A program made the position numbers and the translations under genes. This document shows, piece after piece, positions 26,039 to 30,347 of a stretch of DNA of 64,000 bases. How positions within the stretch are numbered: the stretch's first letter is position 1; every line of letters begins with the position of its first letter. The stretch lies in the NCBI GenBank assembly GCA_002717515.1, contig PBEC01000017.1, positions 73,159 through 137,158 of the forward strand, in the 5' to 3' direction. This DNA is from Flavobacteriales bacterium. Its GTDB lineage: Bacteria > Bacteroidota > Bacteroidia > Flavobacteriales_C > GCA-002722245. A model generated the notes under the pieces. The model had not been told where the DNA came from and did no database searches. It worked only from the letters and a program-made list of their open reading frames with translations.

Positions 26039-28030
26039 TTGGACATATCTTTCCTATATCCTTCATTTTTATGGGCCTTACTCCTGGTGAGTATACCTAT
26101 TTTACTTCATCTCTTTAATTTTAGAAAACATAAGATTCTATATTTCTCAAATGTTAGTCTATTAAAGGAAATTAAAGAGGAATCAAAAAAAGCAAGAAAG
26201 CTCAAAAACTGGCTAATTCTTTTATTTAGGATATTGTTTATTACTTTTTTAGTTCTGGCATTTTCCTTTCCCTATTCAGGTGAAAAATTAAGTACTCAAA
26301 ATGAAACGGTTAGCATATATATAGACAACTCCTTGAGCATGGATAGTGAGGGTGTAGAAGGAAATAAATTAAACAACGCTAAAGCATATGCTGATCAAGT
26401 TATTCAGCAACTTTCACCCAATACAAAAATCCACATTGTCACGAATGACTTTAAGGGCAAACATCAACTTACTTATAACAAAAGAAAGGCTCAGGAAGAA
26501 ATATCAAAAATATCACCCAGCCATTACACTAGGTCACTCAATTCCATAATGAATCGACAATCTTTATTTTTTCAGGGAAAAAACATTAAGAATACTGAGC
26601 TCTATTGGATATCTGATTTTCAACAATTGAATTCAAATAAAATTGAGAATCCGGATAGTTTTAAAATCCATTTGGCGATATTAAAAAGTAGTGAAGAAAC
26701 CAATTTATCCATAGATTCGGTTTGGTTTGAATCGCCTGTCAGAAAAAAAATAGGAACTGAGGTTTTAAAATTCAGTGTTTCAAACTACGGAACAACTGCT
26801 TTGGAAAACCTAAATATTAATTTAAGTATAAACAATAGAATAAATTCATTAACAATTCCTAACCTTACTGTTGGTAAGAGTATTCACGACTACAAATTTC
26901 AAATACCCGAGGACAGTATAATTAAAGGTGTTATTCAACTAGAAGATCAGGGGCTTTTATTCGACAATGAACTTATGTTTTCTTATTTGATACCCAATCA
27001 ACAAAAAGTTTGCTTAATTACCCCAAAAAAATCAGATGTAATAGCAACCCTTACCAAAATATTTAAAGGAGATACCTCTGTTGAATTATCGATTTTATCC
27101 CCTTTTGAAATTGATTACAAAATGCTTTCAGAGCAAGATTTGATTTTATTAGGAGAACTGGATGAAATATCGCAAAATCTGGCTATTGAATTATTAAAGC
27201 TGAGTAAATCAGGGAAAATCATCGGTGTAATCCCGGGAAACAATACCAATTTATTCAATTACAATGAGGCTTTTCAACTTTGGGGTAATGTATCAATCCT
27301 CTCAAAAGACACTCTAACTATGGGTATTGGAGATTTACAAAAATCTCATTCATTTTTTAAAGACGTTTTTGAAAAAAAGAAAAAAAGAAAAAATTTGAAG
27401 GAAAATTTCCCTTCTCTTTATATACATTATGACTTATCAACAGGTTCAAACTGTGAGTCAATAATTTACAAGGAAGATAATTCTCCATTCCTGGTAGAGC
27501 ATAACAACTTTTACTATTTGGCCAGTGGTTTATCAAAAACTCAATCAAATTTTTCAAAAAAAGCTTTGATTGTTCCTTTAATTTATCAAATGTTATTCAA
27601 ATCTATTAATACGACACCGATTCAATACTTCATAACCTCGAAAACAAAATTAGTTTCTCCATCCTCAGTAGATCGATTTATAAATGTTAAATCAAAGAAC
27701 TCTAATTCGCAATTAAGAGTTAACAATCATCTTTCCTCAATTCCTACCAACTTCCAAAAAGGGTATTATCAATTGCTAAAGTCTCAGAAAATTGTTGGTG
27801 CTTTCGGTTTAAATTATGACCGAACAGAAAATTCTTTAATAAAGGATCAGCTTCAAAATTTAAGTCAAGTCGAAAGCTCTCCTTTAATTTCAAGCTTTGA
27901 GGTTTCGGGCAACCAATCCAGTAACTTAAATCAGTTGTCCGACAATAAAAACACACATTGGTTAGCATGCTTGGTTCTATCTTTAACATGTCTTTTCTTT
28001 GAAATGATTTTAATACGAATTAAAATTTAA
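26039..28030 (+). CDS. BatA-like membrane protein with vWA-type domain
   Basis: The N-terminus (DISFLYPSFLWALLLVSIPILLHLFNFRKHK) is the BatA N-terminal motif. A second helix (WLILLFRILFITFLVLAF) follows, then a domain starting SIYIDNSLSMDSEG, which is a vWA-like metal-site motif of the DxSxS type. A C-terminal helix (LACLVLSLTCLFFEMILI) ends the 663-residue protein, so the large middle part is periplasmic. The start is TTG at 26039: an in-frame TAA lies 10 bases upstream and no ATG or GTG fits. Proteins like this stand next to a dihydroorotase-like gene in many Flavobacteriia as I recall, which holds here. Unlike true bat operons there is no MoxR ATPase nearby. Role unknown. Confidence 0.87.
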   Translation: MDISFLYPSFLWALLLVSIPILLHLFNFRKHKILYFSNVSLLKEIKEESKKARKLKNWLILLFRILFITFLVLAFSFPYSGEKLSTQNETVSIYIDNSLSMDSEGVEGNKLNNAKAYADQVIQQLSPNTKIHIVTNDFKGKHQLTYNKRKAQEEISKISPSHYTRSLNSIMNRQSLFFQGKNIKNTELYWISDFQQLNSNKIENPDSFKIHLAILKSSEETNLSIDSVWFESPVRKKIGTEVLKFSVSNYGTTALENLNINLSINNRINSLTIPNLTVGKSIHDYKFQIPEDSIIKGVIQLEDQGLLFDNELMFSYLIPNQQKVCLITPKKSDVIATLTKIFKGDTSVELSILSPFEIDYKMLSEQDLILLGELDEISQNLAIELLKLSKSGKIIGVIPGNNTNLFNYNEAFQLWGNVSILSKDTLTMGIGDLQKSHSFFKDVFEKKKKRKNLKENFPSLYIHYDLSTGSNCESIIYKEDNSPFLVEHNNFYYLASGLSKTQSNFSKKALIVPLIYQMLFKSINTTPIQYFITSKTKLVSPSSVDRFINVKSKNSNSQLRVNNHLSSIPTNFQKGYYQLLKSQKIVGAFGLNYDRTENSLIKDQLQNLSQVESSPLISSFEVSGNQSSNLNQLSDNKNTHWLACLVLSLTCLFFEMILIRIKI

Positions 28031-28086: not shown

Positions 28087-29346
28087 ATGGATGTACTGAT
28101 CAAATCTGCAAAAATCATTAGTCCGAAATCGCCTCATCATTTAAAAACAAAAGACGTTTTAATTGAAAAGGGTAAGATTGTTAAAATTGGAAAAAACTTA
28201 GGTAAGGCAAGAAATGTCATCGAAGAGAAAAACCTTTGCATTTCTGATGGGTGGGTTGACTTATTCAGTGTAATAAGAGAGCCCGGAAATGAACATCAAG
28301 ACAACATAGAAAACCTTTTAAAAAGTGCTGCTAAAGGAGGTTTTACGTCTGTTTTAGGAGTATCAGGAACAACTCCACCACTGGACAATAAATCTCAAAT
28401 TAAATTTGTTCGTAACAGTTCAACCAACAGTATTGTTAACTTATTACCTGCTGGCACAATTACAGAAAATCAAGAAGGCAAAGAAATAACAGAAATGTAT
28501 GATATGCACCTTGCTGGGGCAGCTGCATTTACCGATGGAAAAAAAGTTTTAAAAAACCCAGAACTACTTAAGAGAGCTTTACTTTACTCGAAACCATTTG
28601 GAGGAAAAATCATTTGTTATTGTGAAGACCAAACTGTCGCCAACGGCGGAATGATTAATGAAGGTGAAGTTGCTGCTTCTTTGGGTATGAAAGTTCGTCC
28701 TTCTCTGGCAGAAGAACTTGCTGTAATAAGGGATTTATATATAGCTGAATATACTGAATCTCCTATTCATATAACTGGCGTATCTACTAAAAAGAGTATT
28801 GAAATTATTAAAGAAGCAAAGTCAAAAGGAATTCAAGTAACTTGTGATGTAAATGTTGCTAATTTATATTTCACAGACCAAGAAACTACTTCCTTTGACG
28901 CCAATTATAAGTTATTACCCCCCTTGCGCTCAGAACAAGATCGACTTGCTTTAATTCAAGGTCTAAAAGACGGAACAATAGATGTTGTTTCAAGCGGTCA
29001 TACACCCAAAAATATAGAAACAAAATTTTGCGAATTTGACAATGCAGACTTTGGAGGTGTAAGTTTAGAAGCATCTTTTGGTGCTTTAAACAAAATTCTA
29101 GGGGATGATTTTTCCGAAGAAGAGATTACTCAACTAATTTCATCGAATCCTGCTCGTATTTTAGGACTTAACTATAAAATCGTTGAAGGAGAATCTGCCA
29201 ATATTACAATTTTCAGTTCAAACGGAAATTATACTTTTGAAAAATCCGAAATTGAGTGTCTATCCAAAAATTCTCCTTTCATAGGAGCTGAACTAAAAGG
29301 GAAGGTTATAGGGATTATAAATAACAAGAAAGTTAAATTAAATTAG
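28087..29346 (+). CDS. Dihydroorotase-like protein lacking the catalytic metal ligands
   Basis: The 419-residue protein aligns with type I dihydroorotases throughout: VLIEKGKIVKIG at the N-terminus, IREPGNEHQDNIEN, GGFTSVLGV, HITGVST and NPARILGL. Active-site residues are replaced. The usual DxHxHLREPG reads DLFSVIREPG at 58-67, so both histidines are Phe60 and Val62. The HCED motif reads YCED (178-181). The VTPHHLLLTD histidines become Ala258 and Asn259. The catalytic DHAPH reads GHTPK (304-308), so its Asp is Gly. Such a protein should not bind the zinc pair or make dihydroorotate. Inactive PyrC-prime partners of aspartate transcarbamoylase are known in Pseudomonas; a similar scaffold role is possible, but pyrB is not in the window. 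It is 56 bases after the BatA-like gene. Confidence 0.88.
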   Translation: MDVLIKSAKIISPKSPHHLKTKDVLIEKGKIVKIGKNLGKARNVIEEKNLCISDGWVDLFSVIREPGNEHQDNIENLLKSAAKGGFTSVLGVSGTTPPLDNKSQIKFVRNSSTNSIVNLLPAGTITENQEGKEITEMYDMHLAGAAAFTDGKKVLKNPELLKRALLYSKPFGGKIICYCEDQTVANGGMINEGEVAASLGMKVRPSLAEELAVIRDLYIAEYTESPIHITGVSTKKSIEIIKEAKSKGIQVTCDVNVANLYFTDQETTSFDANYKLLPPLRSEQDRLALIQGLKDGTIDVVSSGHTPKNIETKFCEFDNADFGGVSLEASFGALNKILGDDFSEEEITQLISSNPARILGLNYKIVEGESANITIFSSNGNYTFEKSEIECLSKNSPFIGAELKGKVIGIINNKKVKLN

Positions 29347-29357
29347 TTTAAGGGAAG

Positions 29358-30347
29358 ATGAGTATTGTGAAAAATATTTTCATTTTCCCGAAACGCTTGC
29401 TGTCCGTTCAAAATCAAATTCGTGAGCAAAAGACTTTCCTACATGAATATCTGCATCCATTTTTAAGTAAATATCACAAAAAAAATGATGGTTCTCTTAC
29501 AGAGTATGACTTTGAAAAAATCACGAATTATTACGGTGTTGGTTCACCTGTTTTAGCAGGTGAAGGAATTGCCAATTTACTAAATGTCAAGGTAGGCATC
29601 AGAGAAAGGAAAACGTTGACATTAATGGCTGCCATTACAGGGTTATTTGATGATTTTTTTGACCGCTCCTATGAATCTCCTGATCGAATTAAAGGGTTAA
29701 TGAGCTTATCTCCTGAAACTTTGCCACAAAACGCTCATGAAAGACTCTTTTGTGATTTAGTGCAGGAGATTTTATTGATTTCTCCCAATAAGAAAAGGTT
29801 GTATGAATTTGCTGAACGTGTTTTTGAAGCTCAAGTTGAGAGCTTAAAGCAAAAAGACCCAAATACAAAATGGGATGATTTATTTAGTATCACCTATAAA
29901 AAAGGAGGTGAATCACTTCTGTTTTACAGATGTTCTTTTTCCACTGAAATATCGCTGCAAGAAATAGAATGCTTACTGAAAATTGGTGGGTTAATTCAGG
30001 TTTGCAATGATATTTTCGACGTAAACAAAGACATAAAGGAAGGTATTCGAACAGTTGCAACAGAGACCAAAGACATTAAAACTCTAAAAAACAAAGTTCA
30101 AAAACTGTATAAGGAAACCTTTGATTTCTGTCGACTTGCTATACCTACTAAAAATATGAATGTATTTTTACAACAAATAAAAATTATAGTTTCTCAAAGC
30201 TTTGTCGCTTTAGATTTTTATCAAAAAACTCAGAAAAGTAATGGAGACAACTTCACTCCCAAAAAATATCCGAGAGAATCTTTGATTTGCGACATGGGAA
30301 AAAAGAAACATTTGTTTCAGGCAAGTTATTACTGGATATTCAATTGA
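29358..30347 (+). CDS. Class I isoprenoid-synthase-like protein
   Basis: The 329-residue, all-helical protein carries two Mg-diphosphate-type motifs of the class I terpenoid synthase fold. One is DDFFD at 98-102 (GLFDDFFDRSY). The other is QVCNDIFDVNKDIKEG at about 214-229 with Asn217, Asp218, Asp221, Asp225 and Glu228. A GGESLLFY segment (183-190) sits between, as in related helices. No signal peptide or membrane segment is seen, so it is cytoplasmic or membrane-peripheral. The motifs fit an active diphosphate enzyme, but neither chain length nor product can be read. No other isoprenoid gene is nearby. It begins 11 bases after the pseudo-dihydroorotase and is probably co-transcribed with it. 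Confidence 0.8.
   Translation: MSIVKNIFIFPKRLLSVQNQIREQKTFLHEYLHPFLSKYHKKNDGSLTEYDFEKITNYYGVGSPVLAGEGIANLLNVKVGIRERKTLTLMAAITGLFDDFFDRSYESPDRIKGLMSLSPETLPQNAHERLFCDLVQEILLISPNKKRLYEFAERVFEAQVESLKQKDPNTKWDDLFSITYKKGGESLLFYRCSFSTEISLQEIECLLKIGGLIQVCNDIFDVNKDIKEGIRTVATETKDIKTLKNKVQKLYKETFDFCRLAIPTKNMNVFLQQIKIIVSQSFVALDFYQKTQKSNGDNFTPKKYPRESLICDMGKKKHLFQASYYWIFN

Follow-up and report, generated by a model that had tools for sequence, protein, structure and literature searches.

Results

The pyrC' locus

The stretch of DNA that we analysed (the window) comprises 64,000 nucleotides of a contig from a Flavobacteriales bacterium. On its forward strand lies a gene for a dihydroorotase (DHO) homologue, which we name pyrC', flanked by genes for a BatA-like membrane protein and a protein that resembles isoprenoid synthases. 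The following features are relevant:

26039..28030, forward strand: BatA-like membrane protein with a VWA domain (Pfam BatA, 1.4e-18); a conserved upstream neighbour of pyrC', dispensable for the presence of PyrC'
28087..29346, forward strand: pyrC' (419 aa, ATG start); non-catalytic homologue of type-I dihydroorotase, predicted partner subunit of aspartate transcarbamoylase (ATCase)
28258..28287, forward strand: former metal motif DxHxH[LF]R[DE]PG, now DLFSVIREPG (residues 58-67); both His gone, fold motif retained
28618..28629, forward strand: former HCED motif, now YCED (residues 178-181)
28996..29010, forward strand: former DHAPH motif, now GHTPK (residues 304-308); Asp gone, first His retained
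29358..30347, forward strand: isoprenoid/terpene-synthase-like protein with DDFFD and NDIFDVNKD motifs; a neighbour in this genus only, outside the system

A dihydroorotase fold without a metal site

The pyrC' product matches the TIGR00857 family (8e-94, over the family cut-off), and its best solved relative is the Aquifex aeolicus DHO from the DHO-ATC complex (phmmer, 1.3e-78), to which it is 35% identical. An AlphaFold2 model built from 37 sequences (pLDDT 92.8, pTM 0.92) superimposes with a TM value of 0.95 on both the Aquifex enzyme (3d6n) and the Bacillus anthracis DHO (4yiw). A prior reading of the same DNA, made from the sequence only, had proposed a dihydroorotase fold that lacks its metal site, and this is borne out by the alignment: none of the six Aquifex positions H61, H63, D153, H180, H232 and D305 is retained, their equivalents in the window protein being F60, V62, G151, Y178, G231 and G304. 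Among the side chains that contact substrate in the Aquifex protein, N95 and H309 are replaced by Gly and Lys, while R65 is retained as R64. That reading was also correct in its statement that the fold motifs IREPG and NPARILGL are kept (residues 63-67 and 354-361), yet two histidines, H228 and H305, survive too, and these are invariant or nearly so across the PyrC' family. Thus, of the attributes of an active type-I dihydroorotase (EC 3.5.2.3), the fold and family membership are present, the metal ligands and the catalytic D305 are absent, and the R65/N95/H309 set is incomplete. Judged from these motifs, the window protein is a dihydroorotase homologue that has no metal site and is non-catalytic. 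It shares both of these properties with the inactive PyrC' of Pseudomonas ATCase, with which it had earlier been compared. Its fold differs from that of PyrI, and a profile search of its own genome for PF01948 yielded no match.

Two congeners carry orthologues that are 74% and 73% identical to the window protein; dN/dS relative to these is approximately 0.07-0.09, with dS saturated. We therefore regard pyrC' as encoding a maintained protein that has lost its metal site; that it is a pseudogene is ruled out by the existence of a full-length, class-wide family and by purifying selection.

A second, intact PyrC

The sequence-only reading had hinged on whether the genome encodes another dihydroorotase, and it does: an intact PyrC lies on contig C18 (L002) and displays the motifs QVHFREPG, THCEDE, HISTA and ATDHAPH. 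Its relatives agree, since all 41 PyrC'-bearing genomes that we tested also contain an intact PyrC (E from 0 to 6e-142). Dihydroorotase catalysis falls to this separate, distantly related PyrC of the QVHFREPG type. The intact gene (L002:518-2691, L126, L133) is situated directly behind a GT2 glycosyltransferase that resembles polyprenol-phosphate mannose synthase; envelope-type neighbours are thus common to both DHO homologues. Elsewhere in the same assembly, the start of contig C6 and the end of contig C11 (L003 and L004) bear near-identical hutI/hutG-type genes, one copy of which has many ambiguous bases, and this pair is probably an assembly split or a duplicated edge.

PyrC' is widespread in the class Bacteroidia

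We sampled 247 genomes of the class, and as a first pass required a full-length match at E < 1e-40. This was attained by 207 genomes, one of which (G055) proved to contain an intact DHO; profile searches added ten genomes that carry a diverged PyrC', bringing the total with PyrC' to 216 of 247. In these 216 genomes, an ATCase was found over cut-off in 209, as fragments in four, and not at all in three (G000, G142, G017). In the last of these three, a BatA-like gene has a 4-bp overlap with the gene for a strongly diverged PyrC' (L258); part of the assembly may be missing, or this PyrC' may have been put to another use. Genomes of the f41 family encode extremely diverged pseudo-DHOs (374-402 aa; L256:7233-8357, L257:7137-8345) in a different gene context, and their PyrB also sits on a long branch; the profile check for diverged PyrC' took in four of the eight f41 genomes.

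Alignment of the family, which the sequence-only reading had recommended, revealed that the HHD metal core is missing from 135 of 136 distinct PyrC' proteins; the exception, L247, is intact and lies 7 bp downstream of a pyrB. Near the dead copies, no pyrB was seen at any of the Bacteroidia loci examined, so that pyrB and pyrC' are unlinked there. The former ligands that are retained differ by lineage (as many as four of six in L103), and the erosion of the metal site has therefore been piecemeal. Residues that are invariant in PyrC' (in Aquifex numbering, E70, Y169, H229, K276, R282 and H306) are largely common to active relatives, and so point to a conserved fold or interface and not to a new pocket.

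The assembly that contains the window is 92% complete and yielded no PyrB, nor a clear orthologue of either of two genes found beside pyrRB in the congener G190; this is consistent with a gap in the assembly.

Loss of activity within the Bacteroidota lineage

Of 20 homologues from other classes of the phylum, 18 possess the complete ligand set and seven follow pyrB directly. One sequence from outside the class (L280, 2355-4585; genome G247, f71) is a dead DHO, with YFGSNS at the ligand positions, that overlaps pyrB by 4 bp; this is a Pseudomonas-like pyrBC' arrangement in Bacteroidota and apparently a further loss of dihydroorotase activity. A homologue from family f90 (L285), likewise outside the class, is also dead.

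In a tree that contained no Pseudomonas sequence, the Bacteroidia PyrC' proteins constitute a single clade (SH-aLRT 99) that sits among the phylum's intact DHOs. The native PyrB that accompanies PyrC' groups with the operon-encoded PyrB of the phylum, in trees that placed approximately 35 PyrB proteins from genomes with PyrC'. The topology suggests that dihydroorotase activity was lost within the Bacteroidota DHO lineage.

Native PyrB was not found in genomes without PyrC'

Twenty-four genomes have no PyrC', and the native PyrB lineage was found in none of them. PyrI is present in 12 genomes, all of them without PyrC'. Other PyrC'-less genomes have different forms of ATCase: G090 has only a class-B-like PyrB; G020 has a class-C, Bacillus-like PyrB (348 bits to the B. 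subtilis protein versus 186 bits to that of Aquifex); and three f49 genomes are represented in the trees by two PyrB proteins that branch outside the native clade. The f49 genomes are consequently ruled out as a counter-example of PyrB without PyrC', their PyrB being foreign. In G055, PyrB is followed 70 bp downstream by the intact DHO mentioned above; with all of its metal ligands in place, this DHO is excluded as a PyrC' beside pyrB and so belongs to an active pair, which was probably imported. In six PyrC'-less genomes (G037, G075, G105, G024, G169, G202) there is no detectable ATCase. Among the candidates for PyrB, we rejected L040, which is a succinyl/acetylornithine-transcarbamylase-type gene that precedes argB.

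Three genomes in which PyrB is present and PyrC' was not found are counted apart from the 24. A true loss is ruled out for G224, the contig of which ends exactly at BatA, and we presume that gaps account for G230 and G233. Bearing in mind that the absences of PyrC' represent some six or seven independent events, such that uncorrected genome counts overstate the statistics, the strength of these data resides in the agreement among the events and not in a p-value; a Fisher test on the genome counts disregards phylogeny and takes PyrB to be native in genomes outside the trees, and we place no weight on it.

We also obtained an instructive pair of genomes from a single genus. G146 has the native PyrB, PyrC' and an extra class-B-like PyrB without PyrI (L104, L167/L045); its congener G090 has the class-B-like PyrB only (L053, L251). 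This looks like a stepwise replacement of ATCase inside one genus, with G146 as the intermediate state. Over the class as a whole, PyrC' behaves as a class A2 subunit does: it accompanies a PyrB of class-A type, and is supplanted in genomes that employ a different class of ATCase.

The gene neighbourhood

Both of the immediate neighbours had been identified correctly from sequence, the upstream one as BatA-like and the downstream one as isoprenoid-synthase-like; the linkage had then been taken to suggest a role for PyrC' outside pyrimidine synthesis or a moonlighting one, and our data do not support a role outside that pathway. The product of 29358-30347 has no Pfam or NCBIfam match over cut-off and no relative in the PDB, its matches to terpene synthases being sub-threshold (E 0.014-0.057); it is found beside pyrC' in just four loci, all from the genus of the window, and as a genus-only neighbour it is ruled out as a functional link.

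The BatA-like gene is a different matter. It is directly upstream of pyrC' in 67 of 105 loci of the class, often with a 4-bp overlap, and the common full order is BatA-like, pyrC', a DUF4199 membrane protein and GT2, the latter two being downstream in about half of the loci. The gene order that the sequence-only reading had proposed to check is thus indeed class-wide; the presence of the two genes, on the other hand, dissociates both ways. Such an arrangement could be explained if PyrC' served an envelope or stress function together with the BatA-like membrane protein, unrelated to PyrB, with the correlation to pyrimidine genes a by-product of shared ancestry. We consider this highly improbable. 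In four genomes (G131, G157, G222, G202) the BatA-DUF4199-GT2 cluster survives and lacks nothing but pyrC'; the first three of these have PyrI and G202 has no detectable ATCase. In G090, the place behind BatA that pyrC' occupies in the congener G146 is taken by an unrelated gene on the opposite strand. Together with G037, G075, G105 and G169, this makes nine genomes with BatA and without PyrC', and native PyrB was found in none of them. Conversely, PyrC' is present in ten genomes (G038, G225, G223, G242, G034, G102, G203, G089, G118, G232) in which no close BatA-like protein was found, and all ten have an ATCase. Because BatA is kept without PyrC', and PyrC' with ATCase is kept without BatA, PyrC' follows ATCase and not BatA, and BatA is ruled out as its obligate partner.

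Discussion

We hypothesize, with a probability that we estimate at roughly 0.86, that PyrC' serves a class-A2-type ATCase as its non-catalytic subunit, one that evolved independently and is genetically unlinked to its partner; by analogy with the known complexes, it would bind PyrB. Direct results provide the foundation for this proposal: the fold, the loss of the metal site, the second intact PyrC, the phylogeny, the co-distribution and the precise deletions. The physical complex with PyrB, its stoichiometry and the dependence of PyrB upon PyrC' are predicted from related systems. In Aquifex, three DHO dimers hold together two ATCase trimers, and in Pseudomonas, both the trimerisation and the activity of PyrB need the inactive pDHO (PMC7053772). 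If the same architecture applies, two PyrB trimers would be held together by PyrC' dimers in a class-A dodecamer (PyrB6-PyrC'6), and this clamping would stabilise PyrB or permit its activity.

The same comparisons delineate what is distinctive about the Bacteroidia protein. The class A2 ATCase of Pseudomonas, composed of PyrB and an inactive PyrC' (pseudo-DHO), resembles it in having the type-I DHO fold, no functional metal site and a separate active PyrC; the complex is demonstrated in Pseudomonas, whereas the partnership with PyrB is predicted for Bacteroidia. The Pseudomonas pyrC' adjoins pyrB, whereas that of Bacteroidia is unlinked to it and commonly lies behind a BatA-like gene. The closest solved complex to the window protein is the class A1 ATCase-DHOase of A. 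aeolicus (3d6n, 4bjh), in which DHO is active and has the full ligand set HHDHHD, none of which the window protein keeps. The nearest intact relatives of PyrC' and its PyrB come from other Bacteroidota classes, where class A1-like pyrB-pyrC operons encode them (L267, L271, L273, L277, L281, L283); unlike PyrC', these have an intact metal site and genes that adjoin pyrB. The pseudo-DHO domain of fungal Ura2/CAD-like proteins is another case in which architecture is kept without activity, as we propose for PyrC' (PMC7053772); in contrast to PyrC', it is fused into a single polypeptide and belongs to a separate lineage.

Two further interpretations concern what the dead pocket might do. PyrC' might still be an active hydrolase, either with a different metal site or metal-free, and it is true that former ligands survive in some lineages, such as L103 with its four of six, and that a few pocket residues (H229, H306, K276, R282) are invariant. 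However, there is no alternative ligand set that is conserved, R65, N95 and H309 vary across the family, another intact PyrC was present in every genome tested, and the commonality of the invariant residues with active relatives is explained by the fold; we find this possibility barely credible. Alternatively, PyrC' might bind PyrB mainly as a regulatory sensor, accommodating a nucleotide or metabolite in the dead pocket in the manner of PyrI, and not as a clamp. The mutual exclusion of PyrC' and PyrI would be expected of alternative partner subunits, and the conservation of residues on the pocket side fits as well; against this, PyrC' has no recognisable nucleotide site, and the Pseudomonas pseudo-DHO ATCase has been judged free of nucleotide allosteric regulation (PMC7053772). 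We rate such a sensor as unlikely, though less so than the other alternatives, with the proviso that it is a sub-case of the partner-subunit proposal and so overlaps with the confidence assigned to the latter. These considerations also divide the original suggestion of a scaffold or ligand-binding protein: the scaffold half, as a partner of PyrB, is favoured, and binding of dihydroorotate is unlikely because R65, N95 and H309 are not conserved.

For the partner subunit that we propose, the following history may be envisaged. The ancestral pyrB-pyrC pair of the phylum would have been an active, class-A1 type. A single loss of dihydroorotase catalysis may then have occurred at the base of Bacteroidia or close to it, either following the gain of a second PyrC or together with it. 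Subsequently, each lineage would have eroded the metal site in its own way, with purifying selection continuing to act on the fold, and the gene would have moved out of the pyrB operon. Wherever PyrB was lost, or swapped for an ATCase that is self-sufficient or differently partnered, pyrC' would have been deleted. It is also conceivable, but quite improbable in our estimation, that the class-wide relocation of pyrC' to an operon with BatA-like, DUF4199 and GT genes, where start and stop codons often overlap, ties envelope synthesis to how much ATCase is made or where it resides; the expression of PyrC', or its association with the membrane, might in that event tune the supply of pyrimidine (UTP, and hence UDP-sugars).

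We found no description of a Bacteroidetes pseudo-DHO in the open-licence literature, and one may have been published elsewhere. As far as sequence can tell, an unlinked pseudo-DHO that lost its activity within the Bacteroidota lineage would be a new variant of the class A2 ATCase subunit. Because family models for dihydroorotase recognise the gene, it is likely to carry that annotation across Bacteroidia, and pathway reconstructions probably include an enzyme that is dead and overlook a subunit of ATCase. Our proposal predicts that the ATCase of Flavobacteriales, Cytophagales, Sphingobacteriales and Chitinophagales would be a class-A2-type complex with subunits that are encoded far apart. The phylum also offers a natural series, which runs from an active pair, through a dead partner, to the dead subunit being lost, again and again, on each exchange of PyrB, and which would make the retention of an enzyme fold after its chemistry has been lost directly testable.
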